Assembly: GCA_949292785.1 (NCBI GenBank)
Contig: CASFBK010000004.1
Location: 238,870 to 302,869 of the forward strand
Origin: an uncultured Eubacteriales bacterium
GTDB taxonomy: Bacteria > Bacillota > Clostridia > Lachnospirales > Lachnospiraceae
Length of the DNA: 64,000 nucleotides
Reading direction: 5' to 3'
The translations under genes were made by a program, and so were the position numbers. Positions within the stretch are counted from its first letter, which is position 1. Every line of letters starts with the position of its first letter. The notes under the pieces are model-generated. The model was given only the letters and a program-made list of their open reading frames with translations. It had not been told where the DNA came from and made no database searches. Of this stretch, positions 14,956 through 34,845 are shown piece by piece.

Positions 14956-14972
14956 GAAAAGAGGTGCTGACT

Positions 14973-15803: not shown

Positions 15804-15875
15804 AACGCAGTTCACAGGGTTTTAATTACAGCAAAGTGTAATTTTAATAAAAAAGAAACAAAGGAGAGGAATATT

Positions 15876-16955: not shown

Positions 16956-16979
16956 CTTTAACATTTAAAATAAAAAGAG

Positions 16980-16994
16980 ATTCGCTGAACGAAT
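16980..16994. promoter_or_regulatory. Inverted repeat upstream of pucR-A
   Basis: ATTCG-CTGAA-CGAAT, perfect 5-base arms, 86 bases before the PucR start. It differs from the GTGC operators of the island, so it could be an autoregulatory site or chance. Confidence 0.25.
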
Positions 16995-17014
16995 ATTTTC
17001 ATAGGGCGGCTAAG

Positions 17015-17047
17015 AACCTGTTTTTCGAAAGAAAAGACAGGTTTTTG
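17015..17047 (+). terminator. Terminator between the first ABC operon and pucR-A
   Basis: AACCTGTTTTTC pairs with GAAAAGACAGGTT (one bulge), followed by TTTTTGG. It would end the ABC transcript; some readthrough could feed the regulator gene. Confidence 0.65.
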
Positions 17048-17079
17048 GCGCATTTAAAATAAGGAAGGAGATTCGTGAT

Positions 17080-18762: not shown

Positions 18763-18795
18763 ACAGTGCACTTTGGGTTAAAATCCGGGAAACAA

Positions 18796-18838
18796 TGTGC
18801 AAACTGCACTAAACATAAGAAACGTATGTGTTTATAAT
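18796..18838 (+). promoter_or_regulatory. Type A operator and promoter of the ureide operon
   Basis: Palindrome TGTGC-AAACT-GCACT (18796-18810) and TATAAT (18833-18838), centre to -10 distance 30 bases, the same as at 14031. There is no good -35 hexamer, consistent with activator dependence. A further short palindrome AGTGCACT lies at 18765-18772. Confidence 0.7.
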
Positions 18839-18849
18839 AAAACCAGGTA

Positions 18850-18890
18850 GAGGCGATGAGGTTTCTATAAGAAACTTCGCGCCTCATTTT
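18850..18890 (+). terminator. Leader hairpin of the ureide operon
   Basis: GAGGCG/CGCCTC outer stem and GTTTC/GAAAC inner stem with a small internal loop, followed by ATTTTAG. Starts only about 5 bases after the predicted transcript start. U-tract short, so termination may be weak. Confidence 0.45.
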
Positions 18891-18911
18891 AGTTCATAGG
18901 AGGATGATAAT

Positions 18912-19676
18912 ATGGGATATCCAAAGGATTTATTAGGAACAAGAGCCGTTGTAAAACAAGGACTGTGGGCAGTAATTCCGGATACCGGATTGGTAAATAA
19001 CAGAATTCCTGAAATAGAAGGGTGTTATAACAGTATTATTGCATCACCTAAAATGGGAGCAGGATTTGTGCAGATTGTGGTGGAAGGCGACAGAGGTGGA
19101 AAAACGGTAAAGCCCTATGGGAAAACGGAAGGGATGGAAACATTTATTTATATCGTGGAAGGCGATGTAATGCTTAAGACGGAAGACGTGGAGGAAGTTC
19201 ATAATGCGGGAGGTTATCTATATGCGCCTCCGGCAGCGGGAATAGAGTTTGAAATTTTAAGCTCACATGCAAAGCTTTTATTGTATAAGCAAAGATATGT
19301 TCCATATGAGGATAAAAAACCATACGCAGTATGTGCGAATATTAATCATGTTCCATTTCGCATTTACGACGAGATGAAAGAAGTATGGATTAAGGATTTT
19401 CTGCCGGCAGATGATTTGGCGTTCGATATGAACATGCATATTTTGAGCTTTGAGCCAGGCGCAAGTCATGGGTTTGTTGAGACACATGTACAGGAGCATG
19501 GCGCATATGTTTTGTCAGGGGAAGGGATGTATTTGTTGGATGAAACATGGATGGGGATTAAGAAAAATGATTTTATCTGGATGGGAGCCTATTGTGCGCA
19601 GGCGGCATATGGAGTAGGAAGAGAGCCCTTTTCCTATGTTTATTCAAAAGATTGTAACAGGGACGTTCCGTTATAA
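18912..19676 (+). CDS. allE: (S)-ureidoglycine aminohydrolase
   Basis: 254 residues, close to the 261 of E. coli AllE (YlbA). It is a two-cupin protein; the second cupin carries SHGFVETHVQEHGAYVLSG, which is nearly the E. coli segment with its Mn-binding His, Glu and Gln residues, and the C-terminus SYVYSKDCNRDVPL is also AllE-like. The enzyme releases ammonia from ureidoglycine to form (S)-ureidoglycolate in allantoin breakdown. AGGAGGATGATAATATG gives a strong start. It heads an operon with amidohydrolase genes for the preceding two steps. Confidence 0.92.
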   Translation: MGYPKDLLGTRAVVKQGLWAVIPDTGLVNNRIPEIEGCYNSIIASPKMGAGFVQIVVEGDRGGKTVKPYGKTEGMETFIYIVEGDVMLKTEDVEEVHNAGGYLYAPPAAGIEFEILSSHAKLLLYKQRYVPYEDKKPYAVCANINHVPFRIYDEMKEVWIKDFLPADDLAFDMNMHILSFEPGASHGFVETHVQEHGAYVLSGEGMYLLDETWMGIKKNDFIWMGAYCAQAAYGVGREPFSYVYSKDCNRDVPL

Positions 19677-19693
19677 AGAATGGTGGTGTGTAT

Positions 19694-21037
19694 ATGAGAA
19701 TATTAGTAAAAAATGCGAAGGTTGTCAGTGCAAAAGAAGTGCAGGAAAAAAACGTATATATGGAAGACGGAAAATTCTGTGAAGCGTTTATGGGGGAAGC
19801 GGACAAGGTGATTGATGCGGATGGAAAGCTCATGCTGCCGGGTGCCATTGATGTCCATACTCATGTGGAACAGGAATCAGATGTGGATAAGACCTGTGAT
19901 GATTATTTTGAAGGAACAAGAGCTGCCGTTTCCGGCGGGACTACAACGGTAGTAATGTTTGCAGTACAAAGAAAGGGTGTTCTTCCATTAGCTCTTATCA
20001 AAGACAGAATGGCATCTGCGAAAAGCAAAGCCGTATGTGACTTTTCCTTTCATTTACAGCTTACCGATATTACGGACGAAACCCTTGCCCAACTGGAAGA
20101 AGTAGTTAAGATGGGGATTTCTTCGGTGAAAATATATATGGCAGGTGCAGGCTTTACCATCTGTAATACAAATATTATCAGACTAATGGAATTATCAAAA
20201 AAACTAGGATTTTTAATAGAGGTTCATGCAGAAAGTGACGAACTGGTTCGTTTTTATCGTGAAGATTTAGTAAGAGAAGGAAAGACACAGATGCAATATT
20301 ATGCGCCAAGCCGCCCGTTGGTGTGTGAAACTGCTGCACTTTCCCAGTTAAGTGCATATGCTAAGGCGTTAGGATGTAAGGTGTATATTGTGCATCTGAC
20401 AAGCAAAGAAGGACTGGAAATCTGCAAAAACAGTGATGGACATCTGATTGTGGAGACCTGTCCTCATTATTTGACCTTTACTTCTGATATTTATGAAAAG
20501 GAGGGACCAAGAGCCATACAGTCACCGCCCGTCAGGGAAGCAGAAGACAGGGAGGCGCTTTGGGAAGGAATACGAAACGGAGATGTTAAGACCGTTGGTT
20601 CCGACCATTGTCCTTTTTATCTGGAAGAGAAACAATTAGATGATTTCAGCAAGGTTCCCCTTGGAACACCGGGGATGGAGACGTTAATGCCGGTTGTATT
20701 TTCGGAAGGGGTATCAAAGGGAAAGATTCCGGTCACAAAGGTTGCAGAAGTGCTGAGCGAGAATCCTGCAAAGATTTTTAATCTTGAGAATAAAGGAAAG
20801 ATAGCTCCGGGGTATGATGCGGACTTTGTCTTACTGGACCCGAAGGAAGATTATGTGATGACGGACGATAAGGCTGTTACCACTGCGGGATATTCAACCT
20901 TTTCAGGGCTTACATTTCATGGAAAAGTAAAAGAAACTTATGTCAGAGGTCAGTTGGTGTATGCAGATAATGAACTTAAGGTGGAAAAAGGATTTGGAGC
21001 ATTTCAGGCAAGAAAGCCGATTCAAACAGTGGTTTAG
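19694..21037 (+). CDS. allB: Allantoinase / dihydropyrimidinase-family amidohydrolase
   Basis: 447 residues from the ATG at 19694; the GTG at 19688 overlaps the GGTGGTG ribosome site. The metal-dependent hydrolase barrel shows DVHTH, a carbamylated Lys in SVKIYMAG, EVHAE, IVHLTSKEGL and the catalytic Asp in GSDHCPF. These residues are shared by allantoinase, hydantoinase and dihydropyrimidinase. The KIYMAG motif is somewhat closer to hydantoinases, so the name rests on its position between allE and an allC-like gene. Expected reaction: allantoin to allantoate. Confidence 0.8.
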   Translation: MRILVKNAKVVSAKEVQEKNVYMEDGKFCEAFMGEADKVIDADGKLMLPGAIDVHTHVEQESDVDKTCDDYFEGTRAAVSGGTTTVVMFAVQRKGVLPLALIKDRMASAKSKAVCDFSFHLQLTDITDETLAQLEEVVKMGISSVKIYMAGAGFTICNTNIIRLMELSKKLGFLIEVHAESDELVRFYREDLVREGKTQMQYYAPSRPLVCETAALSQLSAYAKALGCKVYIVHLTSKEGLEICKNSDGHLIVETCPHYLTFTSDIYEKEGPRAIQSPPVREAEDREALWEGIRNGDVKTVGSDHCPFYLEEKQLDDFSKVPLGTPGMETLMPVVFSEGVSKGKIPVTKVAEVLSENPAKIFNLENKGKIAPGYDADFVLLDPKEDYVMTDDKAVTTAGYSTFSGLTFHGKVKETYVRGQLVYADNELKVEKGFGAFQARKPIQTVV

Positions 21038-21051
21038 AGGGAGGTGGTCTT

Positions 21052-22308
21052 ATGAGAGAAAAAGCGAATCAGGATAATATCAAAAAGTGGATTGAAGGCA
21101 TGGCGCGTTTTAACAGTACCCCGGAGTATGGAACAACGAGAATTCTGTTTACAAAACCGGAACTGGAAAATCGTGAATATGTGAAAAGCGAAATGAGAGG
21201 GATTGGGCTGGAAGTGGAAGAAGACGCCATAGGAAACATCTTTGCAAGGCTTGCCGGAACTAAGCCCGGGCTGGCTCCGGTCTGGACGGGTTCTCATATT
21301 GATACAGTGCCAAATGCCGGAAATTTTGATGGAATGGCGGGGGTGGTGTGCGGTATGGAAGCCTTGCGCATGATAAAAGAAAGTAATCTGGAACATAAAC
21401 GTGATATCATGGTCAATGTTTATACCTCAGAAGAGCCAACCCGGTTTGGACTGAGCTGCTTAGGAAGCAGAGCATTAGCGGGAGTCATGAGTCTGGAAGA
21501 CACAAAGCATATTTTTGACAAAAGTGAGCGGAGCCTTTATGATAAATTAGTAGAGCTTCACTATGACCTTGACAAATTTAAAGAGATTCCAAAGAAAATG
21601 GGAGAGGTATTTGCAGCAGTAGAGCTTCATATAGAGCAGAATAACCGTCTGGAAAAAAGCGGCAGACCCATTGGCATTGTCAAAAAAATATGCGCTCCGT
21701 CAAACTTTATCATTACGGTTACCGGTGTTCAGTCCCATGCTGGAGGAACCTCTATGGAAGAAAGACACGATGCTTTTGCGGCGGCATGCGAGATGGCTTT
21801 ATTTCTTGAAAATCTTGCATTGAAGTGTCCCAGTGAATATAATACGGCAACCATAGGAGTCGCCAATTTAATTCCCGGCGGTGTTAATGTGATTCCGGGA
21901 AAAGTCGTTTTTTCTGTTGATATCAGAGACTGTAATAAAGATACGAAAGAACGGCTGATGAAGGATATGTTTGCAGGCTTCGACGAAATAGCTGAAAGAA
22001 GAGGCGTAACGTATACCAGCCAGGAAGATAATAATGATATTCCGTTGACCTGTAATGAAAAAATTGTGGAGCTGCTTCGTACAAACTGTAAGGAAGAAAA
22101 TTTAGAATATGATGAGCTTATCAGTGGTCCCTATCATGATACGCTGTTTATCGGCAGGTTTGCTCCGGCTGCAATGATATTTGTGCCAAGTAGAAAAGGT
22201 ATCAGCCACAGTCCGGAGGAATGGACCGAATATAGCCAGCTGAAAAACGGCACAGAAGTTTTAGCAAAGACTCTGTTGGATTTGTCCAACATGGAAGAAA
22301 ATATATAG
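21052..22308 (+). CDS. allC: Allantoate amidohydrolase-like M20 metallohydrolase
   Basis: 418 residues with a GGGAGGTGG ribosome site. The M20/AllC/N-carbamoyl amino acid hydrolase pattern is present: WTGSHIDTVPNAGNFDGMAG binds the metals, SEEPTRFG supplies the catalytic Glu, VTGVQSHAGGTSME is the dimerisation-domain signature, and a late His lies in GISHSPEEW. AllC, ureidoglycolate amidohydrolase and carbamoylase cannot be told apart by these motifs. Given allE upstream, conversion of allantoate to ureidoglycine with release of ammonia and CO2 is most likely. Confidence 0.8.
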   Translation: MREKANQDNIKKWIEGMARFNSTPEYGTTRILFTKPELENREYVKSEMRGIGLEVEEDAIGNIFARLAGTKPGLAPVWTGSHIDTVPNAGNFDGMAGVVCGMEALRMIKESNLEHKRDIMVNVYTSEEPTRFGLSCLGSRALAGVMSLEDTKHIFDKSERSLYDKLVELHYDLDKFKEIPKKMGEVFAAVELHIEQNNRLEKSGRPIGIVKKICAPSNFIITVTGVQSHAGGTSMEERHDAFAAACEMALFLENLALKCPSEYNTATIGVANLIPGGVNVIPGKVVFSVDIRDCNKDTKERLMKDMFAGFDEIAERRGVTYTSQEDNNDIPLTCNEKIVELLRTNCKEENLEYDELISGPYHDTLFIGRFAPAAMIFVPSRKGISHSPEEWTEYSQLKNGTEVLAKTLLDLSNMEENI

Positions 22309-22324
22309 AAGAGAGGAAAAACAT

Positions 22325-23278
22325 ATGAAAATCAGTTTATTAGAGCCTATCGGAGTACCTGTTTCAACGATTGAGGAGCTTTCCAAAGACATGGTGGAGG
22401 CAGGTCATGAATTTACCTACTATGATACGAAGACAACAGATGTGGAAGAATTAAAAAAGAGAACAGAAGGTCAGGATATTGTGATGATTGCAAATAATCC
22501 ATATCCTGCGGAGGTGGTAAAATCTGCGGATGCACTGAAGATGATTTCCGTGGCATTTACCGGAATCGACCATATTGGTGTTGCGGCGTGTAACGAAAAG
22601 GATATTATGATTTGCAATGCTGCCGGATATTCCAATCAGACCGTTGCAGAGTTATCTATTGGAATGGCGATTGCAGCCCTGAGAAATCTGGTAGAAGCCG
22701 ATAGAAGGGTTAGAAACCAGGAAACAAGTGCCGGTATCGGTGGCCGTGAGATTGCAGGACGAACGGTTGGGATTGTAGGACTTGGAAAGATAGGGCTTAC
22801 TACGGCGAAGCTGTTTCAGGCATTTGGCGCAAGGGTGATTGCATATAACCGCAGTGAATCAGAAGAAGCAAAAGCATTGGGAATCGAATATAAGAGTCTT
22901 GATGAGGTCTTGTCAATGAGTGATATTATTTCCATTCATCTTCCTTTGAATGATAATACAAGAGGATTTATCAGTGCGGATAAAATAGCTCTGATGAAAA
23001 AAGATGCGATTCTTATAAACTGTGCGAGAGGACCGATTATTGATAATGCGGCATTAGCAGAAGCGTTAAAAAAAGGCGAGCTAGGATATGCATGTATCGA
23101 TGTATTTGATATGGAGCCGCCAATTCCTGCGGATTATCCATTGCTCAACTGTCCAAATACGTTTCTTGCGCCACATCAGGGATTTATCTCGGAAGAGTCA
23201 ATGCTTCGCAGGGCAAAGATAGTATTTGATAATGTATATGCATATCTGGACGGAAATCCTGTGAATGTATGTAAATAG
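22325..23278 (+). CDS. D-2-hydroxyacid dehydrogenase family protein
   Basis: 317 residues. Rossmann NAD site VGIVGLGKIG, catalytic Arg in INCARGPIID, Glu in FDMEPP and His in APHQGF are all intact, so it should be active. It is the last gene of the ureide operon, 16 bases after allC. The usual next enzymes, ureidoglycolate lyase (AllA) or ureidoglycolate dehydrogenase (AllD, a different fold), are absent. This protein may act on ureidoglycolate, or recycle glyoxylate made from it. The substrate is inference from context only. Confidence 0.85.
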   Translation: MKISLLEPIGVPVSTIEELSKDMVEAGHEFTYYDTKTTDVEELKKRTEGQDIVMIANNPYPAEVVKSADALKMISVAFTGIDHIGVAACNEKDIMICNAAGYSNQTVAELSIGMAIAALRNLVEADRRVRNQETSAGIGGREIAGRTVGIVGLGKIGLTTAKLFQAFGARVIAYNRSESEEAKALGIEYKSLDEVLSMSDIISIHLPLNDNTRGFISADKIALMKKDAILINCARGPIIDNAALAEALKKGELGYACIDVFDMEPPIPADYPLLNCPNTFLAPHQGFISEESMLRRAKIVFDNVYAYLDGNPVNVCK

Positions 23279-23286
23279 AATAGAGT

Positions 23287-23352
23287 TTGTGCATATGCAC
23301 AATGGTTTTTGTGGATATACCCGTTGCACTTTCAGAAAGCTTATTATAAAAT
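23287..23352 (+). promoter_or_regulatory. Type B operator and promoter of the NifI-tau operon
   Basis: Perfect 16-base palindrome TTGTGCATATGCACAA (23287-23302), then TTGCAC (23324-23329) and TAAAAT (23347-23352) with a 17-base spacer. The operator centre is 29.5 bases before the -35, about -64, a class I activator position. Exactly the same geometry occurs before the aminotransferase gene (28856). Confidence 0.75.
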
Positions 23353-23371
23353 GTGCTTAACAAACATGGTG

Positions 23372-23419
23372 CAGGGCAAAGAAGCCGAAGAATAAAAGGC
23401 TTTTTTGCCCTGTTTTTTA
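23372..23419 (+). terminator. Strong leader terminator of the NifI-tau operon
   Basis: CAGGGCAAA...AAGCC pairs with GGCTT...TTTGCCCTG, followed by TTTTTTATT. It begins about 13 bases after the predicted transcript start and precedes the ribosome site GAGGAGG, so the operon should be controlled by readthrough. Confidence 0.75.
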
Positions 23420-23440
23420 TTATTAAGAGGAGGAAAGCAT

Positions 23441-23767
23441 ATGAAAATGATACGTGCGATTATTCGTCCGGAAATGGCAGATAAGGTTGCAGATGCACTA
23501 TTGCAGGCAGGCTATCCGGCAATGACCAGACTGGATGTATATGGTAGAGGAAAACAAATGGGATTTCAGGTTGGAAGTGCATTTTACGATGAGCTGCCAA
23601 AGCATATGATTATGATGGTTGTACAGGATGAGGAGGAAGAAAAGGTTGCCCGGATTATTATGGAAAATGCATATACGGGTGATGATGGAAATTATGGAGA
23701 CGGAAGAATCTTTGTATCACAGGTAAGCAAAGCATATACCGTTAGTACAAGAACAACGAATCTGTAA
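23441..23767 (+). CDS. nifI1: NifI1-type PII signalling protein
   Basis: 108 residues from the ATG at 23441 behind GAGGAGG; an upstream in-frame ATG at 23405 falls inside the leader terminator. Start MKMIRAIIRPE, the T-loop region with GRGKQMGFQVGSAFYDELPK and the C-terminal GDGRIFVSQVSKAYTV are typical of NifI1, the PII branch that regulates nitrogenase by sensing 2-oxoglutarate and ATP/ADP. The GlnB uridylylation Tyr context is absent. No nif genes occur here; the partner nifI2 and tau genes follow. It probably gates taurine transport or metabolism by nitrogen status. Confidence 0.88.
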   Translation: MKMIRAIIRPEMADKVADALLQAGYPAMTRLDVYGRGKQMGFQVGSAFYDELPKHMIMMVVQDEEEEKVARIIMENAYTGDDGNYGDGRIFVSQVSKAYTVSTRTTNL

Positions 23768-23779
23768 GGAGGCGGGCAT

Positions 23780-24115
23780 ATGGTTGAAATACTTGCAATT
23801 ATTCGTCCACAGAAGCTTGCGGCGACGAAGAAAAAGTTGATTGAAACCGGTTATCCGGGGTTTACCTGTCATAGAGCTATGGGAAGAGGGAAAAAGCCGG
23901 TGGCGTTCCTGCTGGCAGATGGAACATCGGTCCGTACAAACTTAGTTGGAAAAAGAGTACTGAATATCATGGTTCCGGATGAGGCAGAGGATGAGGTTGT
24001 GAAAGCAATTATTGATGTAAACTCCACAGGGAATCCGGGAGATGGAAAAATATTTGTAGCACCAATCGAAAAGTCTTATAGAGTAAGAACCAGAACGTTA
24101 GATAATGAGGTATGA
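23780..24115 (+). CDS. nifI2: NifI2-type PII signalling protein
   Basis: 111 residues, 12 bases after nifI1, ribosome site AAGGAGGCGGG. It has the PII fold pattern (EILAIIRPQKLAATKKKLIETG, MGRGKK, NIMVPDEAEDEVV, GNPGDGKIFVAPIEKSYRVRTR) and an atypical T-loop (PVAFLLADGTSVRTNLVGKR), as expected of NifI2, which forms mixed complexes with NifI1 in diazotrophic archaea and clostridia. Its stop overlaps the region just before tauC, so translation of PII and permease is probably linked. A repurposed NifI pair is the oddest feature of the island. Confidence 0.87.
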   Translation: MVEILAIIRPQKLAATKKKLIETGYPGFTCHRAMGRGKKPVAFLLADGTSVRTNLVGKRVLNIMVPDEAEDEVVKAIIDVNSTGNPGDGKIFVAPIEKSYRVRTRTLDNEV

Positions 24116-24131
24116 AAGGAGAAACAGGGCT

Positions 24132-24905
24132 ATGAAAAAGAAAATATCAAAAGAAAAGTTAATCTCTATAGGTACCGTATTACTTATCTTTGTTTTATGG
24201 TTTGTGGCAAGTTCCCTTGGCTGGGTCGACAAGAAACTGATACCGTCACCCGGGCAGGTATGGGATGCATTCCTTGGTGTCTGCCGGGATTATAAAGGTC
24301 ATTCCCTGCTGCAGCATATCGGTGTTAGTATGCAGCGTTTGTGTATGGCATTCGGACTGGCATTTGTAACAGCGGTTCCTCTTGGGCTGTTGAGTGGATT
24401 TAGTTCAAAAATACGGGCAGCCTTTGAACCGATTATTGAGTTCTATCGTCCGTTACCGCCACTGGCATATTACACGCTGCTGGTATTGGCATTGGGGATT
24501 GATAATGCATCAAAAATTGCATTGCTGTTTCTGGCATGCTTCGCGCCGATTTACGTTTCCTGCGTATCGGCAGTTATAAAGGTAAAAGCAGATTACATCA
24601 ATAGTGCATATACATTGGGCGCCAGTAAGTTTCAGGTATTCTTTTCCGTTATTTTTCCATCCTGCCTGCCGGATATGTTCACCGGATTAAGAACCTCTAT
24701 CGGTGTAGGATATTCCACGCTGGTTGCGGCAGAAATGGTTGCGGCAAATACCGGTATTGGCTGGATGGTGTTAGATGCAAAGAACTGGTTAAGAAACGAC
24801 ATCGTATTTGTAGGAATTATTATCATGGGAATTACAGGTATCCTGATTAATATAATTCTGAATCTTCTGGAGAAAAAATTCGTGCCATGGAGAGGCAAGG
24901 CGTAA
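24132..24905 (+). CDS. tauC: Taurine ABC transporter permease
   Basis: 257 residues from the ATG at 24132 behind AAAGGAG; an in-frame ATG at 24105 overlaps nifI2 and lacks a ribosome site. About six membrane segments and the EAA loop AYTLGASKFQVFFSVIFPSCLPD match the SsuC/TauC permeases. It works with TauA (24975) and TauB (26042). The taurine call comes mainly from TauA. Confidence 0.85.
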   Translation: MKKKISKEKLISIGTVLLIFVLWFVASSLGWVDKKLIPSPGQVWDAFLGVCRDYKGHSLLQHIGVSMQRLCMAFGLAFVTAVPLGLLSGFSSKIRAAFEPIIEFYRPLPPLAYYTLLVLALGIDNASKIALLFLACFAPIYVSCVSAVIKVKADYINSAYTLGASKFQVFFSVIFPSCLPDMFTGLRTSIGVGYSTLVAAEMVAANTGIGWMVLDAKNWLRNDIVFVGIIIMGITGILINIILNLLEKKFVPWRGKA

Positions 24906-24974
24906 ACCGGGAGCAGGCAGCAACATGGTGATAGGACAATATAGAGCAATCGAAAGGTATAAGGAGGAAACATT

Positions 24975-26027
24975 ATGAAGAAGACGGTAAAAAAATGGTT
25001 AGCAGCAGTCATGACAGGTGTTTTATCAATGGCGCTTTTTACAGGATGCGGTGATTCATCATCGGATAACGGTGGTTCAACGGATTCCGGGGATGGAGCG
25101 GAAGTTACAAAGGTAGTAATCGGAACACAGGAAATGCCCAATGACGAAGGAATTGCAAAGGCATTGGATTATTTTTCAGAAGAAATGGGAGTAGAAGTGG
25201 AGCTTAAACAGTTCGATTCCGGAAAAGATGTAAATACAGCATTGGCTGCCGGAAGTATTGATTTTGGTTTATTAGGTTCCTGTCCGGCATCTCTGGCAAT
25301 CAGCCAGGAGCTTGGTGTAAAGTGTATCTGGATTCATGAAGTGCTCGGACCAACAGAAAGTTTTGTAGCAAGAGCAGATGCAGGTATAAGTACAGTTGCT
25401 GATTTAAAAGGCAAAAATATCGCAACCCCATTTGCCTCTACGGCACATTTTTCCTTACTTCATGCCTTAGAAGAAGCAGGATTAAGTGAATCTGATGTAA
25501 ATCTTTTAGATATGCAGCCAAGTGAGATTTATGCAGCATGGCAGAATGAACAGATTGACGCAGCTTATATCTGGGAGCCGACCTTATCCGAATTGGAGAA
25601 TCAGGTGCTGCTGTGTACCAGCACAGATATGGCAGATGCCGGATATATGACATCTAACGTAGAACTGGTTCGAACAGAGTTTATGGAGCAGAATCCGGAG
25701 CTGGTAGCAGGCTATATCCGTGCGTTGGCAAAGGCAGTGGATATGTATCAGAGTAACACAGATGAGGCGGTTGCTACCATTGCAGATGCATTAGAGCTGT
25801 CAGAAGAGGACGCCAAAAGCCAGATGGCAGGGTCTGTATGGTTAAGTGCAAGTGAGCAGTTAGGAGCAGACTATTTTGGAACAAGTGATGCAAAGGGAGC
25901 CCTGGTTCAGAATCTGTATGATACGGCAACATTTTTAAAGGAGCAGGGCAGTATTGCGGAGGTACCGGACATGTCTGTTTTTGAAGAGGCAGTAGATGCG
26001 TCTGGAATTGAGGCAGCATTAAAGTAA
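24975..26027 (+). CDS. tauA: Taurine-binding lipoprotein
   Basis: 350 residues; lipobox LFTGC (Cys25) shows a membrane-anchored binding protein. The mature part follows E. coli TauA closely as I remember it: KQFDSGKDVNTALAAGSID, GLLGSCPASLAISQ, ATPFASTAHFSLLHALEEAG, LDMQPSEIYAAWQNEQIDAA, and TATFLKEQG near the C-terminus. This collinear match over most of the length is the main evidence that taurine, or a close aminosulfonate, is the substrate. Alkanesulfonates remain an alternative. Confidence 0.85.
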   Translation: MKKTVKKWLAAVMTGVLSMALFTGCGDSSSDNGGSTDSGDGAEVTKVVIGTQEMPNDEGIAKALDYFSEEMGVEVELKQFDSGKDVNTALAAGSIDFGLLGSCPASLAISQELGVKCIWIHEVLGPTESFVARADAGISTVADLKGKNIATPFASTAHFSLLHALEEAGLSESDVNLLDMQPSEIYAAWQNEQIDAAYIWEPTLSELENQVLLCTSTDMADAGYMTSNVELVRTEFMEQNPELVAGYIRALAKAVDMYQSNTDEAVATIADALELSEEDAKSQMAGSVWLSASEQLGADYFGTSDAKGALVQNLYDTATFLKEQGSIAEVPDMSVFEEAVDASGIEAALK

Positions 26028-26041
26028 GGAGGCGTGCTGAT

Positions 26042-26848
26042 ATGGAGGATGAAAAGGTAGTAGTTTCGATCAAACATGCTAATTTAGAGTATGACAGTGA
26101 AAAGGGAAAGGTACTGGCATTACGGGATGCCAATCTGGATATCAAAAAAGGTGAATTTATCTGTGTGTTAGGTCCTTCCGGATGTGGAAAGAGTACGTTG
26201 TTAAATATTATCGCGGGATTTCATAAGCCAACGTCCGGTTCTGCCACTATGGATGGAGAAGAGATACAGGGACCAGGCTGGAATCGCGGCGTTGTATTTC
26301 AGACACCGCCCTTGTATCCATGGCTTAATATTTACGAGAACATTGCCTATGGTCCCAAGAAAAGAAAGCTGCCCAAAGACCAGATTGAGGCAGAGGTAAA
26401 TAAATACATGGAAATCGTAGGACTGAAAGACTTTAAAAAGCATAAGCCATACGAATTATCCGGTGGTATGAGGCAGAGAGCTTCATTGGCAAGAGTGCTG
26501 GTAAATCAGCCGGAAATGATACTGATGGATGAGCCCTTAGGAGCATTGGATGCCTTGACCCGAACCAACATGCAGGCGCTGATTCGTGATATATGGAATA
26601 AAAATGGAAATACCATATTTTTTATTACCCACGATGTAGATGAAGCATTGGCATTGGCGACCAGAGTAATTGTAATGTCAGCAAGACCGGGACGTATTGT
26701 CAAGGAATTTCATACAGATTTTACATATGACATGGGTGGCTTAAATCAGGAAGCGGCTCGTTATTCCAAAGAATATATGGAGATTCGCGAAGAGATTCTG
26801 AATATTATCAATACGCAGAATGCTGCGGCTGCCGGAAGTAATGCTTAA
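26042..26848 (+). CDS. tauB: Taurine ABC transporter ATPase
   Basis: 268 residues. Walker A GPSGCGKST, signature LSGGMRQRASLARVL, Walker B MILMDEPLGALD and switch His in FFITHDVDEA are intact, with the C-terminal extension usual for SsuB/TauB. It starts 14 bases after tauA behind AAGGAGG. Together nifI1-nifI2-tauC-tauA-tauB form one transcription unit. Confidence 0.88.
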   Translation: MEDEKVVVSIKHANLEYDSEKGKVLALRDANLDIKKGEFICVLGPSGCGKSTLLNIIAGFHKPTSGSATMDGEEIQGPGWNRGVVFQTPPLYPWLNIYENIAYGPKKRKLPKDQIEAEVNKYMEIVGLKDFKKHKPYELSGGMRQRASLARVLVNQPEMILMDEPLGALDALTRTNMQALIRDIWNKNGNTIFFITHDVDEALALATRVIVMSARPGRIVKEFHTDFTYDMGGLNQEAARYSKEYMEIREEILNIINTQNAAAAGSNA

Positions 26849-26866
26849 ATTGGCTCTGAAAAGAGG

Positions 26867-26906
26867 AATGGTTATCAGAGGAGAAATCCGCTGATAGCCA
26901 TTTTGT
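26867..26906 (+). terminator. Hairpin between tauB and pucR-B
   Basis: AATGGTTATCAG pairs with CTGATAGCCATT (one wobble), followed by TTTGTC. Likely a partial terminator that lowers expression of the regulator gene relative to the transporter. Confidence 0.55.
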
Positions 26907-26934
26907 CGAATAGAAAGGTCTGGAGGGAAAGAAG

Positions 26935-28110
26935 ATGTCAGTAACGTTAGGAATGTTATATGATAAAGTAAAAAACGAAGAAGAGATACAACTGGTGGCA
27001 GGAGAAAAAGGACTTGTAAAGATGGTACGCTGGGTGCACATGGTGGAAGGGACTGATATTTCTTCTTTTTTAGAAGGGGATGAGGTGGCATTTACCACGG
27101 GAATTGCATTAGGCTCCAAAGAAGAGCTGTATGAGCTGGTAGAATTTAATTATAAGCAGAAAGCCGCCGGTATGGTCATTAATGTAGGACCTTATATTAA
27201 AGAGATTCCACAGGAAGTTCTGGACTTTGGCAATCAGCATGATTTTCCGATTTTTGAAGTGCCGTGGCGGGTACATATGGCAAATATTATGAGAGAGTTT
27301 TCTATTCAGATTAATTTAGACGAGCAAAAAGAACTGGAAATCGTATCTGCATTAAAAAACGCCATTATTTTTCCCGAAAATGAAACACTCTATGTACCAA
27401 CATTATTAAAATATGGATATAAGCGGGAATGGTCCTACTGTATTGTAGTGGCAGAAGTGTATAATAAGCAGTCGATGGCTTTGAAAAGCACGGATAAAAA
27501 ACATTTGCTTCGTTATGCCAGAAGATATTTTAATTCCTGGGGACAAAAGGCGGCGGTCTGGGAACTGGATGAAGATTTTGTTTTCCTTTTTGCGAACTGC
27601 AACGCGGAAAAGGTGAAAAAAGAGATGGAAAAGTTTTGGAAGGAAACAGAGCCATTTCTGTTGCGGGGAGCTATTTTATATGCCGGAGTTGGCAGAGCTA
27701 CCAAAAGTATGCACTGCATTGGCAAATCATTTGTTCAGGCAGAGAAAATTAAAAAACTGCACAAAAAGAAGCAGGAGAAAAATACCTTTACCACTTATAA
27801 TGAACTCGGAATATACAAGCTGCTGTTATCCATGGAGGATACGGAAACCATGCAGGAGTATTACAGGGAAAATCTGGGGCGTTTAGAAGAATACGACCAT
27901 ATAAACGAAACCGATTATTTCTATTTTTTAAAGCAATATTTTGAGCTGGGATGCAGTGTACAGGATATCGCAGCAAAAATGTATATACATAGAAATTCCG
28001 TCACATATAAACTCCATAAAATTGAAGAAATATTAGGTATGGACATAAGCAGACAGGGAAATCGAATGATATTGATGGTTGGGTTCATGATAAAGGAGAT
28101 TATAACATAA
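26935..28110 (+). CDS. PucR-family transcriptional regulator B
   Basis: 391 residues, shorter than regulator A (560). N-terminal PucR domain (KMVRWVHMVEGTDISSFLEGDE) and C-terminal helix-turn-helix with VQDIAAKMYIHRNSVTYKLHK. It lies between the tau genes and the exporter gene and overlaps the latter by one base. The two promoters of module B share the type B operator, so this protein is the candidate binder. Its effector might be taurine or sulfoacetaldehyde; unknown. Confidence 0.85.
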   Translation: MSVTLGMLYDKVKNEEEIQLVAGEKGLVKMVRWVHMVEGTDISSFLEGDEVAFTTGIALGSKEELYELVEFNYKQKAAGMVINVGPYIKEIPQEVLDFGNQHDFPIFEVPWRVHMANIMREFSIQINLDEQKELEIVSALKNAIIFPENETLYVPTLLKYGYKREWSYCIVVAEVYNKQSMALKSTDKKHLLRYARRYFNSWGQKAAVWELDEDFVFLFANCNAEKVKKEMEKFWKETEPFLLRGAILYAGVGRATKSMHCIGKSFVQAEKIKKLHKKKQEKNTFTTYNELGIYKLLLSMEDTETMQEYYRENLGRLEEYDHINETDYFYFLKQYFELGCSVQDIAAKMYIHRNSVTYKLHKIEEILGMDISRQGNRMILMVGFMIKEIIT

Positions 28111-28820
28111 TGGTAAACGATATTTTATTTCAGCTCGTATTGTTTTTCTCTAATATGATACAGTCCATTACGGGATTTGCGGGAACTTTACTGGCGATGC
28201 CTTTTTCTATCCGATTGGTTGGGGTAGTAGAGGCAAAGACTGTTTTGAATATTTTTACACTGATGGCATGTCTGGTAATTTCCATACAAAATAGAAGATA
28301 TGTGAATTACAAGGTGCTGGCAAAAATGGCTGCGGGTATGCTAATAGGAATGGTAATAGGAATCTGGTTGTTTGAACAGGTGCCCTTACAAATACTGCTG
28401 ACCTTTTATGCGGTTTTAATCATTCTTATAGCGATTAAAAAAATGTTCTGGAAAAAGGAAATAACCTTGCCGGGCTGGGTAATGGTGATGGTACTGGTGG
28501 CAGCAGGTATCATTCATGGAATGTTCTTGTCAGGTGGCGCATTGCTGGTGATTTACGCAGTTTATGCATTAAAGGATAAAGCGGAATTTCGCGCAACGAT
28601 ATCCGCAGTGTGGGTGCTTTTAAATAGTCTGCTGATTGTAATGAGTTATCAGGCAGCAAATTATAACACTGCAACCATAAAGGCGATTTTGATTAGTATG
28701 ATTCCTTTAGCGTTATCTGTAAAAATTGGAAATATTCTTTATAAAAAAATTAATCAGCAGCAGTTTTTGAAGGTTACATATGTATTGCTGCTTATCTCAG
28801 GGGCATCTCTTCTTTTTTGA
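28110..28820 (+). CDS. tauE: TSUP/TauE-family permease, probable isethionate exporter
   Basis: 236 residues, about eight hydrophobic segments. The two half-repeats (MIQSITGFAGTLLAMPF near the start and GIIHGMFLSGGALLVIYAV in the middle) identify the TauE/SafE family of anion exporters for sulfite, sulfoacetate and isethionate. Start codon overlaps the pucR-B stop (TAATG), so the two are translationally coupled. Beside an aminotransferase and an alcohol dehydrogenase, export of isethionate is the best reading. Direction and substrate are not provable from sequence. Confidence 0.8.
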   Translation: MVNDILFQLVLFFSNMIQSITGFAGTLLAMPFSIRLVGVVEAKTVLNIFTLMACLVISIQNRRYVNYKVLAKMAAGMLIGMVIGIWLFEQVPLQILLTFYAVLIILIAIKKMFWKKEITLPGWVMVMVLVAAGIIHGMFLSGGALLVIYAVYALKDKAEFRATISAVWVLLNSLLIVMSYQAANYNTATIKAILISMIPLALSVKIGNILYKKINQQQFLKVTYVLLLISGASLLF

Positions 28821-28855
28821 GTGCAGCAAGGTATTTTGAAAAAGAAGGACAGGAC

Positions 28856-28920
28856 TGTGCATACGCACAAAAAACTTTAGTTTGGCAACCATTGAGGAGG
28901 GTTTTTCAGAGTGCTATGAT
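28856..28920 (+). promoter_or_regulatory. Type B operator and promoter of the aminotransferase operon
   Basis: Near-perfect palindrome TGTGC-ATAC-GCACA (28856-28869), then TTGAGG (28892-28897) and TATGAT (28915-28920), 17-base spacer. Operator centre to -35 is 29.5 bases, identical to the site at 23287. The promoter lies downstream of an in-frame start at 28882, which rules that start out. Confidence 0.72.
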
Positions 28921-28953
28921 GAATCCAACAAAAAAAGCGAAAGGAGTTTTTTT

Positions 28954-30303
28954 ATGAGTATGACAGGAAAAGAAGTAGCAGAAATGCACAAAAATTATAT
29001 TATGCAGTCATGGGGCAAAGCAGGGGGAGATGCCACCCCTATCGAGAGAGCAGAAGGAATTTATTTTTGGGATTATGATGGAAATAAATATGCAGATATG
29101 TCTTCCCTTTTGGTATGTTCGAACTTAGGACACAGTCTTCCGGAAATTGTAGAGGCAATCAAAGCGCAGGCAGATAAAATGTGTTTTATGTCTCCGGCTT
29201 ATGCATCTGAGCCAAAGAGCAAACTGGCAAAAATGTTAGTAGAGGCAGCTGGGGAAGATACTTATAAGAGAGTGTTTTTTACAAACGGCGGAGCAGATGC
29301 AAATGAAAACGCAATTAAGATGGCACGTATGGTAACCGGAAGAACGAAGATTTTTTCCTGCTATAGAAGCTACCACGGAGCGACGATGGCAGCATCAAAC
29401 GCGTCCGGTGACTGGAGAAGATTTGCCGCTGAAATTGGTGGAGCAAACGGATTTGTGAAGTTTATGAATCCGCAGATGTATCGGGATGGATTCACTTATG
29501 GAAAAGATGATGAGGCGGTAACAAAGAAGGCACTGGCAGACCTGGACCTGCAGCTTCGGTATGAAGGCACGCAGAATGTGGCAGCAATTTTAATGGAATC
29601 GATTGTAGGAGCAAACGGTGTTATTCTTCCGCCAAAGGGATATATGGAGGGCGTCAGAGCGCTTTGCAATAAATATGGTATTTTAATGATTTGTGATGAG
29701 GTCATGGCAGGTTTCTTCCGTACCGGTAAATGGTTTGCATGGCAGAACTTTGCCATCAAGCCGGATTTGATTACTTTTGCAAAAGGTGTAACCTGTGGTT
29801 ATGTACAGCTCGGCGGAGTTATCGTAAATGAAAGAGTAGCAAAATATTTTGAAGAAAATGTATTACAATGTGGTCTTACTTATTCCGGACATACATTGGC
29901 ATGTGCAGCAGGTGTTGCAGCCGTAAATTATTACAAAGAGCATAACATAGAGCAGCATGTTGCTAAAATGCATGAAATCGTAGCAAAATTTATGGACGAA
30001 ATGGTAGAAAAACATACTTGTATCGGGGAAGCAAGGTGCATTGGTCTATTTGGAGCGTTAGAAGTAGTTAAGAATAAAGAGACAAGAGAACCGATGCAGG
30101 AGTATGGTGTGCCGGGTCCATGGATGCCTTGGATTTTTGCAGAATTGAAAAAACGTGGATTTGCAACCTTTGGGCGAGAGAATTTTATTGAAATCTGTCC
30201 GCCATTAATTATTACAAAGGAAGAATTAGAGGAATATCTGCCGGTGTTAGACGAGGTACTTACGTTAGTAGATGAGAAAATTGCTTCCGGAGAAATCAAG
30301 TGA
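28954..30303 (+). CDS. toa: Class III aminotransferase, probable taurine aminotransferase
   Basis: 449 residues from the ATG at 28954 behind GAAAGGAG. It is a PLP-dependent class III enzyme: FFTNGGADANENAIKMAR, SYHGAT, ICDEVMAGF and the PLP Lys in ITFAKGV. Relatives include taurine:pyruvate and taurine:2-oxoglutarate aminotransferases as well as beta-alanine and GABA aminotransferases. Adjacent tauABC, TauE and an iron-type dehydrogenase favour taurine, giving sulfoacetaldehyde plus glutamate or alanine. The amino acceptor cannot be told from motifs. Confidence 0.75.
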   Translation: MSMTGKEVAEMHKNYIMQSWGKAGGDATPIERAEGIYFWDYDGNKYADMSSLLVCSNLGHSLPEIVEAIKAQADKMCFMSPAYASEPKSKLAKMLVEAAGEDTYKRVFFTNGGADANENAIKMARMVTGRTKIFSCYRSYHGATMAASNASGDWRRFAAEIGGANGFVKFMNPQMYRDGFTYGKDDEAVTKKALADLDLQLRYEGTQNVAAILMESIVGANGVILPPKGYMEGVRALCNKYGILMICDEVMAGFFRTGKWFAWQNFAIKPDLITFAKGVTCGYVQLGGVIVNERVAKYFEENVLQCGLTYSGHTLACAAGVAAVNYYKEHNIEQHVAKMHEIVAKFMDEMVEKHTCIGEARCIGLFGALEVVKNKETREPMQEYGVPGPWMPWIFAELKKRGFATFGRENFIEICPPLIITKEELEEYLPVLDEVLTLVDEKIASGEIK

Positions 30304-30357
30304 TTAAAAAAAATCAGGTCATGAGAATCGTTATAATGGTAGGAAAGGAAGAGACAT

Positions 30358-31476
30358 ATGGAGTGGGAATATTTGCAGCCGGTTACCATAAAATTTGGAA
30401 ATGGCATTAGAACGGAATTAAAGGAAATAGCAGAGTCTCTGGGCTGTAAGGCAGGACTATTAGTAAGTGATCCATTTTTTGTATCAAGTGGACTGGCAGA
30501 ACAGATTGTAGCAGAAAGCGATGGAATATTGACCGGGATTTATGGGGAAGTATCCCCGAACCCGGATGTTACAGAGGTGGATGCCTGTGCAGCAGTTATA
30601 AAAGAAAATAATCAGGATTTTGTGGTTGCATTAGGCGGTGGAAGCGCCCTTGATTGTGCCAAGGCAGCAGCGAGTATTTGTCTGACGTCGGATTCGATTC
30701 GGAAATACCATGGAACCGGAGAGGCTATGCCGCAGGAGCATCTTCCTTTGATTGCAGTACCAACTACTGCAGGCACCGGAAGCGAGGTAACCTGTGTTTC
30801 CGTACTTACAGACCATGCAAATGGAAAGAAGTCTCCGATTGTTTCCAATGGATTTTATCCTTCTATTGCAATCATTGACCCGGAGCTTACTTATTCCATG
30901 CCGCCTAAGGTAACGGCAAGTACGGGAATTGATGTACTTTGCCACGCTTTAGAGGGCTTTTGGAGCAAAGGGCATCAGCCGGTATGTGATGCACTTGCAC
31001 TGCATGCATGTAAAATAGTATTTACTTATCTGAAAAGAGCATACTTAGACGGAGAAGATAAGGAAGCAAGAGAAAAAATGGCAGAAGCCTCTGTGATTGC
31101 AGGAATGGCATTTACGCTTCCTAAGACCACCGCTTCCCATGCATGTTCGTTTCCGTTAACCAATTTGTATCATATTCCGCACGGAGAAGCATGTGGATTG
31201 ACGCTGGACTATTTTGCAAGAATTAATGCTTCTGTGGAAGATGGCAGATTAGAGGGATTTGCGAAGGAATTGGGATTTGCAGATGTGGCGGAGCTATCAG
31301 ATGCGATTCATGGGTTGAAGGAAGAATTGGGACTAAGAAATGATTTGAAGGATTTGAACTTAACCGATAATCAGATTGCTGAGTTAGTAAGAATCAGTCG
31401 CCATCCAAATCTTTATAACAATCCGGTGGAAATTACAGACGAAATGTTACAGGAGATGTATGAATCTTTCCGGTAG
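30358..31476 (+). CDS. Iron-type alcohol dehydrogenase, probable sulfoacetaldehyde reductase
   Basis: 372 residues. Dinucleotide site ALGGGSALDCAKA, PTTAGTGSEVT, metal ligands Asp and His in TGIDVLCHALEG, and two further His in ASHACSFPLTNLYHIPHGEA match group III (Fe-dependent) alcohol dehydrogenases. It follows the aminotransferase by 54 bases with no terminator between. Reduction of sulfoacetaldehyde to isethionate by this family is known (SarD/TauF type). Other aldehydes, such as malonate semialdehyde, are possible if the aminotransferase substrate is not taurine. Confidence 0.78.
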   Translation: MEWEYLQPVTIKFGNGIRTELKEIAESLGCKAGLLVSDPFFVSSGLAEQIVAESDGILTGIYGEVSPNPDVTEVDACAAVIKENNQDFVVALGGGSALDCAKAAASICLTSDSIRKYHGTGEAMPQEHLPLIAVPTTAGTGSEVTCVSVLTDHANGKKSPIVSNGFYPSIAIIDPELTYSMPPKVTASTGIDVLCHALEGFWSKGHQPVCDALALHACKIVFTYLKRAYLDGEDKEAREKMAEASVIAGMAFTLPKTTASHACSFPLTNLYHIPHGEACGLTLDYFARINASVEDGRLEGFAKELGFADVAELSDAIHGLKEELGLRNDLKDLNLTDNQIAELVRISRHPNLYNNPVEITDEMLQEMYESFR

Positions 31477-33106: not shown

Positions 33107-34324
33107 TTACATTTCTACTTTTCTAAAATTTTTCTTTCCCTTTTTCACAACCTTTGCTTCCTTGAAGTCCTCAGGGGTAAAAGCAGCTCTGGTGTCAGTA
33201 ATCTTTTCTCCGTCAACAGAAACACCGCCCTGTTCTACGGCGCGACGGGCCTCGGAACGGGAAGCAGCCAGACCGGAAGATACCAGAACACCTAATATAT
33301 CGATGGAACCATCGGTAAAGTCAGCATCTGTCAGTGTAGCAGTCGGCATATTCTGGGCATTTCCGCTGGAGAACAGTGCGCGGGCACCCTCCTGTGCTTT
33401 CTTGGCTTCTTCCTCACCATGAACTAATTTTGTCAGTTCAAAAGCAAGAATCTCCTTTGCAGTATTTAACTGCGCGCCCTCCCAGTCATTCATCTTGTCA
33501 ATCTCTTCTAATGGCAGGAAGGTCAGCATACGGATACATTTTAATACGTCACTGTCTGCCACGTTTCTCCAGTACTGGTAAAAATCAAATGGAGAAGTCT
33601 TCTCCGGGTCAAGCCATACGGCACCGGACTGGGTCTTGCCCATTTTTTTACCCTCGGAGTTTAAAAGCAGGTTAATTGTCATGGCATAAGCATCTTTTCC
33701 GAGCTTACGGCGGATTAACTCCGTACCGCCTAACATATTCGCCCACTGGTCGTCTCCGCCAAACTGCATATTGCAGCCGTATTTCTGGAACAATTCGTAG
33801 AAGTCATAGCTTTGCATAATCATGTAGTTAAATTCCAGGAAAGTAAGGCCTCGTTCCATTCTCTGCTTATAACATTCGTGTGTCAACATTCTGTTGACAG
33901 AAAAGTGTGGTCCTACTTCACGTAATACTTCTACATAGTTTAAATCCATCAGCCAGTCAGCGTTATTTACCAGCATAGCCTTTCCCTCAGAAAAGTCAAT
34001 GAATCGGCTCATCTGTTTCTGGAAGCAGTCTACGTTATGCTGAATGGTTTCCGGAGTCATCATCTGACGCATGTCCGTTCTTCCGGATGGGTCACCAATC
34101 ATTGCTGTACCGCCGCCGATTAATGCGATGGGTTTATTGCCTGCCATCTGTAACCGTTTCATTAAGCATAAAGCCATAAAATGTCCTACATGAAGACTGT
34201 CTGCGGTAGGGTCAAATCCAATGTAAAATACAGCCTTTCCGTTATTTATAAGTTCCTTGATTTCTTCTTCATCTGTTACCTGGGCAATCAGCCCTCTGGC
34301 AACCAGTTCGTCATATACTGTCAT
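33107..34324 (-). CDS. tyrS: Tyrosyl-tRNA synthetase
   Basis: 405 residues. The class I signature is HVGH (residues about 41-45), the second signature is KMGKT, and [16 protein letters not shown] form the tyrosine pocket. The C-terminal 70 residues are an S4-type RNA-binding domain ([21 protein letters not shown]). Length fits the bacterial TyrS family. Expression is governed by a T-box leader (34555-34845) separated from the start codon by a 37-base tandem hairpin repeat. Ribosome site AGGAGGTAAAC on the minus strand. Confidence 0.96.
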
Positions 34325-34558: not shown

Positions 34559-34845
34559 AAAAAAGCTTCCGCCCTGCAAAGGACGAAAGCTAAAACTTAC
34601 GTGTTACCACCTTTATTCACAGACAACTCACGCTGTCTGCCTTAGTAAGTGCCTGTCAGCACTCCTGCATCTTAACGGTTGCAATTCCGTCACAGCCTAC
34701 TTATGGAGTATGGCCACTTGTTCGGTGTGAAGCTCCTGGATGTATTCACAAAAAGTTCTTCCTGCGCCTCTCATCAGCCGGCTGCTTTCTGTTGGATTCC
34801 CTGATTGCTACTTCTTCCAATCGTTGCTTTTGCTTATTGAAACTA
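34555..34845 (-). ncRNA. T-box leader (tyrosine) of tyrS
   Basis: On the minus strand the leader holds a stem I region with the Tyr codon TAC (34742-34744) in a GAATACATC loop, the T-box sequence AAAGGTGGTAACACGTAAG (about 34595-34614) and a terminator whose arms AGCTTTCGTCC and GGGCGGAAGCT are followed by a U-run (34555-34592). Uncharged tRNA-Tyr should stabilise the antiterminator and switch tyrS on. All expected parts are present. Confidence 0.9.

Follow-up and report, generated by a model that had tools for sequence, protein, structure and literature searches.

What would a bacterium without a recognisable nitrogenase do with NifI1 and NifI2, the PII proteins known as a nitrogenase switch, in front of a set of taurine genes? 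The pair belongs to a block at 23287-31476 of a 64,000-nt stretch of Lachnospiraceae DNA (the whole stretch is the window) from a bacterium that, going by its family, likely dwells in the gut. In the list of open reading frames the block runs on the plus strand in the order NifI1, NifI2, TauC-TauA-TauB, PucR, TSUP, Toa, TauF, with intergenic gaps of -11 to 133 nt. Pfam and NCBIfam agree on the families: P-II, taurine-type substrate-binding protein, permease and ATPase, PucR with HTH_30, TauE/TSUP, class III aminotransferase, and iron-type alcohol dehydrogenase (Fe-ADH). An earlier reading of the letters alone (the sequence-only reading) had described the TauA-like protein with its permease and ATPase, the TSUP/TauE protein, the aminotransferase, and the Fe-type dehydrogenase in a single orientation, and this is borne out. 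With somewhat more confidence than doubt, we read the block as a taurine nitrogen-scavenging operon in which PucR would act through an operator and NifI would control the importer.

The two PII genes start at ATG codons at 23441 and 23780. The first (23441..23767, plus strand) is preceded by an AGGAGG ribosome site and encodes a 108-aa protein (PF00543, 83.8 bits), while the second (23780..24115, plus strand) encodes 111 aa (PF00543, 68.7 bits) and overlaps tauC by 11 nt. PDB 9p1x is the best structure match of PII1 (chain 9p1x_H, 102 bits) and the third best of PII2, for which 3t9z is best (78 vs 74 bits). As nitrogenase reference we used the DNA 5' of nifD in 14 genomes belonging to the order, and 14 of 14 carry two PII genes there. 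A tree built from 57 PII proteins groups window PII1 with the NifI1 of nif operons (100/98) and PII2 with their NifI2 (93/88); it leaves out the partial PII of locus L019, that of L029, whose protein domain is the same as in L028, and a PII-like protein in L114. Four PII proteins of the same genome, GlnK-like or fused to Amt, fall apart from the window pair (100/99), and a GlnK or GlnB identity was rejected on this ground. The NifI identification made by the sequence-only reading thus holds by phylogeny. Nitrogenase was sought throughout the genome, which is 99.74% complete; PF00148 has 0 matches, and the best NifH-family match reaches 52 bits.

The enzymes of the block point to taurine. The aminotransferase Toa (28954..30303, plus strand) matches the taurine:2-oxoglutarate aminotransferase of B. 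kashiwanohense (BkToa, 6jix; E 2.7e-222) with 72.8% identity over 441 aa, and TauF (30358..31476, plus strand; PF00465) matches the metal-dependent sulfoacetaldehyde reductase BkTauF (6jko; E 3e-173) with 66.9% identity over 369 residues. This characterised pair provides the closest solved relatives by a wide margin, the next structures following at E 5.1e-65 for Toa (742 vs 223 bits) and E 4.6e-57 for TauF (579 vs 197 bits). BkTauF is reported as a sulfoacetaldehyde reductase with the residues D192, Q196, F252, T257, H261, F265, and H275 named (PMC6616044). Window TauF is identical at six of these seven reported active-site residues (D192, F252, T257, H261, F265, and H275) and has His in place of Q196, as do a number of homologues (PMC6616044). 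The sequence-only reading had proposed a taurine aminotransferase with a sulfoacetaldehyde reductase, to be checked by comparing the proteins at 24975, 28954, and 30358 with TauA, Toa, and TauF; their nearest solved structures are TauA 6ssy, BkToa 6jix, and BkTauF 6jko, which together with the identities above supports the proposal. Relatives of TauF at 76-77% identity also occur in L015, L016, and L017, whose flanks yielded no Toa relative.

The importer genes are consistent with the same substrate. For the TauC-like permease (24105..24905; NF007545, 223 bits, cut-off 342), the TauA-like binding protein (24975..26027; TIGR01729, E 4.6e-64, 216.7 bits, cut-off 304), and the TauB-like ATPase (26042..26848; NF008421, 244.8 bits, cut-off 357), all on the plus strand, the best NCBIfam models are taurine equivalogs, and the matches are strong, each under its cut-off. 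TauA is nearest to 6ssy (E 2.5e-42) yet under its cut-off, so taurine binding is likely but unproved. The TSUP/TauE-family membrane protein (28110..28820, plus strand; PF01925, 84.7 bits) is a candidate isethionate exporter. Carbon-sulfur lyases of two types were searched for, namely glycyl radical enzymes like pyruvate formate-lyase (PFL) and Xsc, with none found in the genome; oxygenases such as TauD were not part of the search. The only PFL-like protein is a pyruvate formate-lyase (formate C-acetyltransferase, 1162 bits, cut-off 994), hence no IslA-type cleavage is expected, and of the four proteins in the genome that match the Xsc model none exceeds the cut-off (best 325 vs 676 bits), as is likewise the case in 14 of 14 control genomes. 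A pathway without C-S cleavage, as claimed earlier, is therefore borne out within these two lyase types. We consider it very probable, judging by homology, that the pathway as a whole turns taurine into glutamate and excreted isethionate.

The sequence-only reading had also suggested bile salts as the source of taurine. Nitrogen from taurine is supported, but the bile-salt hydrolase family PF02275 has 0 matches in the genome, so that self-supply by bile-salt hydrolysis was rejected and taurine from bile salts would have to be freed by other cells.

Toa-TauF clusters of other genomes place NifI beside the importer. The best 80 of 208 loci in a scan with TauF yielded a set of 23 clusters, window included, in which a Toa of at least 700 bits lies beside TauF; L026 (Toa split, PII fragment) was left out. 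NifI1 is present in 19 of the 23. It is lacking from L011 and L014, both of which end <1.3 kb 3' of TauF, and from L031 and L033 of Bifidobacterium, whose ABC (ATP-binding cassette) importer lies farther downstream. Three arrangements recur: NifI1-NifI2-tauCAB (A: window, L013, L021, L023, L032, L034), a GltS-family symporter (PF03616, tested in L009) and then NifI1 (B: L009, L010, L012, L018, L020, L022, L035, L038), and NifI1 and then an APC permease (PF13520, tested in L028; C: L024, L025, L028, L029). L011 has a GltS gene interrupted by the contig end and L019 a partial NifI1 at its contig end. L023 belongs to Anaerostipes butyraticus JCM 17466, a relative that can be cultured, and L028 to Blautia massiliensis GD8. 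In 18 of the 18 clusters showing both, NifI1 adjoins the importer gene, which is of three unrelated types (6 ABC, 8 GltS, 4 APC), with gaps of -11 to 92 nt. The order of the enzyme genes varies among loci, yet NifI stays by the importer gene, before tauC, after gltS, or before the APC gene. The single PII proteins of types B and C in the tree of 57 (n = 11) are all NifI1-type. TSUP relatives occur in 21 of the 23 clusters (absent from L019 and from L033, whose contig starts just before Toa). A side observation concerns an Amidohydro_3 relative (PF07969 in L009, 13119-14720) in 10 of the 23 clusters, eight of type B with NifI and both of Bifidobacterium; our guess is that it releases taurine from an N-acyl or other conjugate.

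NifI2 differs between the two settings in its loop. We measured the GRG-to-GDG spacing, which spans the T-loop, counting L196 as nitrogenase-linked for its alternative-nitrogenase-like neighbours and excluding from the NifI2 counts the NifI1-type rows L197_1498 and L201_1438 (nif) and L024, L025, and L028 (type C). The spacing is 51-59 in 12 of 12 importer-linked NifI2 copies (52 in all six taurine-linked proteins, 51-59 in the other six) vs 60-70 in 50 of 50 nitrogenase-linked copies. The T-loop region of window NifI2 thus falls about 15 residues short of the length seen most often in nif copies (52 vs 67) and lacks their long loop. The NifI1 spacing is 48-51 with no difference between groups. 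PII proteins contact their targets through the T-loop, so a short NifI2 loop fits a change of partner. Such contact is documented for GlnK-AmtB (PMC10710835).

NifI beside importers extends past taurine. NifI1 was found (E<=1e-18) in 15 of 299 genomes of the family, this one and 14 others, the latter comprising nine nif operons, four NifI pairs by a NitT/TauT-type ABC importer (L184, L185, L187, L190), and one type-C taurine cluster (L191). Across the class it occurs in 26 of 391 genomes, own genome included; other genomes gave 30 matches, 28 of them with a locus (27 nitrogenase clusters and one importer locus), and two matches in G791 came without one. In the importer locus, L218 (L222 in its wider form), NifI1-NifI2 are accompanied by genes for an ABC importer, urea carboxylase, and a UAAP2 protein. 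Urea-carboxylase-like and allophanate-hydrolase-like genes are also found in L184 and L185 (L184 carboxylase 1693 bits, cut-off 1304), and agmatinase-like and GABA-type (gamma-aminobutyrate-type) enzymes lie by the NifI pair and ABC importer of L190. The window's own genome has a second NifI pair (L113, C6:200000-218000) by a PucR, a TauC/TauB-like pair, a nitrilase-family protein, a GABA-type aminotransferase, and two Fe-ADHs, which probably serve import of another amine as nitrogen source. In L221 and L224, NifI1-NifI2 lie by alternative-nitrogenase-like clusters, in L221 3' of the structural genes.

In the trees, the taurine-linked NifI1 copies form one group (98/97) that also takes in two long-branch nif rows, and the six other importer-linked copies likewise group together (NifI1 89/86, NifI2 99/95). 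The simplest reading is two recruitments of NifI, though short proteins resolve many forks poorly. We would give even chances to a general view in which NifI is not confined to nitrogenase and was recruited, probably twice (to taurine clusters and to other NitT/TauT-type importers in loci of urea/guanidine-carboxylase and agmatinase/GABA type), as an exchangeable gate for importers of nitrogen compounds, nitrogen fixation not being required of the bacterium. With the change of target the NifI2 loop would have shortened, and NifI1 alone would have been kept when the ABC importer was swapped for a GltS- or APC-type carrier.

A palindrome, TTGTGC-N4-GCACAA, precedes the genes. A perfect copy, TTGTGCATATGCACAA, lies at 23287..23302, 5' of the NifI-TauCAB unit, and a copy with two mismatches, CTGTGCATACGCACAA, at 28855..28870, 5' of Toa. 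These are the only matches with up to three mismatches within the 64 kb (expected 0.51), and two are reached in 12 of 100 shuffles, so that in the window alone the pair is only suggestive. The comparison across species makes the palindrome significant. If one mismatch among the 12 positions is allowed, the 782,315 bases of the window and L009-L053 contain it 23 times vs 1.6 by chance, and it lies no more than about 270 nt 5' of the start in 18 of the 23 Toa genes, both Bifidobacterium loci included. It also precedes NifI1 in the window and L013; L019 has a second site before Toa at 8582, and the copies at L019 3123 and L030 7490 are stray. Among further loci, a perfect copy precedes the beta-alanine-type aminotransferase of L118, one-mismatch copies precede ABC genes of L115 and L118, the type-C cluster L191 has the operator, and L070 and L186 have one stray copy each. 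A PucR-family regulator (26935..28110, plus strand; PF07905 and PF13556) has relatives in 20 of the 23 clusters, window included (absent from L019, L033, and L038), and because of this co-occurrence it is the candidate reader of the palindrome. That PucR acts through it at both transcription starts is, by comparative evidence, rather probable. The sequence-only reading had seen two matching promoters; these are real as the palindrome repeated at 23287 and 28855, but an enrichment of consensus sigma-70 promoters is not seen and was rejected, 15 being found vs 22.8 expected in shuffles.

Between operator and NifI1 the leader contains a hairpin with a T-run (23371..23413, plus strand; 16-pair stem, -28.7 kcal/mol), about 15 nt before the NifI1 ribosome site. 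In L013 the corresponding place is taken by a perfect 15-pair hairpin whose sequence is unrelated. The window hairpin looks like a terminator inside the NifI1 leader and is perhaps an attenuator, which suggests attenuation or antitermination. An Rfam search of the window gave no family match at the hairpin and only a T-box elsewhere, and a known riboswitch was rejected.

From these elements we infer the following scheme. TauABC would import taurine, and Toa would transfer its amino group to 2-oxoglutarate, yielding glutamate and sulfoacetaldehyde. TauF would reduce the latter to isethionate using NAD(P)H, and the TSUP protein would probably export isethionate with its sulfur uncut. PucR, probably sensing taurine or a product, would act via the palindrome at the two transcription starts. 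NifI1/NifI2 would sense 2-oxoglutarate and adenylates. When nitrogen suffices and 2-oxoglutarate is low, the pair would bind the importer, most likely its TauB/TauC part, and uptake would stop; in nitrogen need, 2-oxoglutarate and ATP would release it. Gene linkage and loop length make us put this gating of the importer by nitrogen status at about an even chance.

Several observations weigh against the scheme. The operator is absent before five of the 23 Toa genes (L021, L022, L023, L025, L038), and in L019, which has an operator, the 8.4 kb of upstream flank contain no relative of PucR, so the link between PucR and operator is not one-to-one. Both Bifidobacterium loci have operator and enzymes without NifI, hence NifI is not essential to the pathway. 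A larger tree of NifI2 only, with midpoint root, puts taurine NifI2 outside the nif group and in two groups, which may or may not share one origin. TauA, TauB, and TauC, as given above, all fall below the NCBIfam taurine cut-offs. Carriers of the GltS and APC types are not known as trimers. The use of PII on transporters seems restricted to those able to act as trimers (PMC10710835). Finally, NifI travels with importer and enzymes alike, and linkage alone cannot rule out Toa as target. The same taurine pathway with NifI acting on Toa, or on PucR and transcription, is possible, if less probable to us. The known target of NifI is an enzyme, nitrogenase (PMC9765008); wherever NifI occurs (19 loci), Toa lies in the same cluster, and because Toa consumes 2-oxoglutarate, a PII ligand, its direct control would also make sense. 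Against this stand the shuffled gene order, with NifI still by the importer gene, and the NifI pairs by NitT/TauT-type ABC genes with other enzymes (urea carboxylase in L184, L185, and L222; agmatinase-like and GABA-type in L190).

The remaining explanations concern the substrate, the purpose, and the pair itself. Class III aminotransferases are broad in specificity, and the substrate might be beta-alanine, GABA, or another omega-amine, with the dehydrogenase reducing a carboxylic semialdehyde. BkTauF indeed has 15% activity on 3-hydroxypropionate (PMC6616044). The genome, however, already has a second Toa-like aminotransferase at C2 (57.4% identical to window Toa, 58% by another comparison), and its neighbours in L115 are an Fe-ADH, an ABC importer, a dihydropyrimidinase-like protein, and PreA (577.7 bits, cut-off 335), a neighbourhood that fits the gene set expected for reductive pyrimidine breakdown via beta-alanine. 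The L115 dehydrogenase has I/V/R where TauF has F252/T257/F265, so the two modules seem to divide beta-alanine and taurine between them. With the binding protein nearest to TauA, we regard an omega-amine as improbable and reject it on account of the paralogue beside PreA. That the pair is a functionless leftover of a lost nif operon would agree with a genome in which nitrogenase has no match, but the pair is intact, NifI1 retains its ribosome site, six type-A loci keep it with taurine genes, the shortening of the NifI2 loop is shared, and the taurine-linked NifI1 copies form one supported group; we hold this to be very improbable. An operon for sulfur, with sulfite cleaved at a later stage from isethionate or sulfoacetaldehyde, has a possible parallel in L116 of a family relative (G183, C63), where a Toa-like gene, TauCAB, and TauF lie beside a sulfopropanediol-type glycyl radical enzyme (1478 bits, cut-off 1000), its activase, and sulfur-assimilation genes, and where taurine is perhaps a sulfur source. 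NifI was sought in L116 and is absent, so in this one case it is missing where taurine seems to serve sulfur. As the window's genome has neither an IslA-type protein nor an Xsc above cut-off, its sole PFL-like protein being pyruvate formate-lyase, a sulfur operon is hardly credible and was rejected. The preferred reading thus remains taurine use for nitrogen with NifI at the importer.

Directly 5' of the taurine block, 14185-23278 holds a second nitrogen operon with a NitT/TauT-type ABC importer, a 560-aa PucR, and genes for (S)-ureidoglycine aminohydrolase (316.6 bits, cut-off 200), a hydantoinase/allantoinase-like protein, an allantoate-amidohydrolase-like protein, and a 2-hydroxyacid dehydrogenase. 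It looks like a set for ureide or allantoin use, and the operator of the taurine block was not found in it. The T-box leader (Rfam RF00230, 96.5 bits) lies at 34576-34833 on the minus strand, 5' of the gene 33107-34324, by eye a tyrosyl-tRNA synthetase, and is ordinary.

Should NifI gate taurine uptake, the flow from taurine to isethionate would be set by how well commensal Lachnospiraceae are supplied with nitrogen. Whether gut conversion of taurine to isethionate may feed sulfite-reducing, H2S-making bacteria has been raised as an open question (PMC6616044). NifI would also gain a second class of target, and the short-loop NifI2 with its several importer types would be a ready system for testing how PII proteins change partners. 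The sequence-only reading had held that the wiring would be new. TauF clusters and the taurine pathway in strict gut anaerobes were published in 2019 (PMC6616044), so the pathway is not new, but our searches of the open-licence PMC literature, which does not cover subscription papers, turned up no paper that links NifI with taurine or another importer. A guanidine review (PMC12186494) makes no mention of PII, and a review of transporter control (PMC10710835) none of NifI or taurine. The block is a known pathway with an apparently unreported layer of nitrogen control.

Compared with known systems, the block is closest to the Toa-TauF cluster of B. kashiwanohense, with which it shares orthologous Toa (72.8%), orthologous TauF (66.9%), and, probably, a taurine ABC importer (PMC6616044); PII, NifI, and PucR are not mentioned in the text of that paper. 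B. kashiwanohense itself is not among the loci compared, but L031 (B. olomucense) and L033 (B. scaligerum) have the window's operator before Toa and, unlike the window, no NifI1-NifI2 pair. The IsfD pathway of Klebsiella oxytoca and Chromohalobacter salexigens likewise uses a taurine aminotransferase, reduces sulfoacetaldehyde, and releases isethionate for nitrogen (PMC6616044). The reductase there is IsfD, a short-chain dehydrogenase/reductase (SDR), whereas window TauF is a metal-dependent alcohol dehydrogenase of the Fe-ADH class (PF00465) and hence not the SDR-type enzyme of the IsfDE pathway. The NifI1,2 proteins of nitrogenase operons group with the window pair, which keeps their I1-I2 order but differs in its shorter NifI2 T-loop region, its importer neighbours, and a genome with no nitrogenase match. 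NrtABCD belongs to an ABC subfamily related to TauABC. PII inhibits NrtABCD and UrtABCDE in cyanobacteria (PMC6603209; PMC10710835), so the principle is known and its NifI form seems new. As in those systems and GlnK-AmtB, a PII gene or protein in the window is tied to a nitrogen importer; here, however, the PII is a dedicated pair of NifI type, the predicted cargo of the importer is an organosulfonate, and the control is a prediction.

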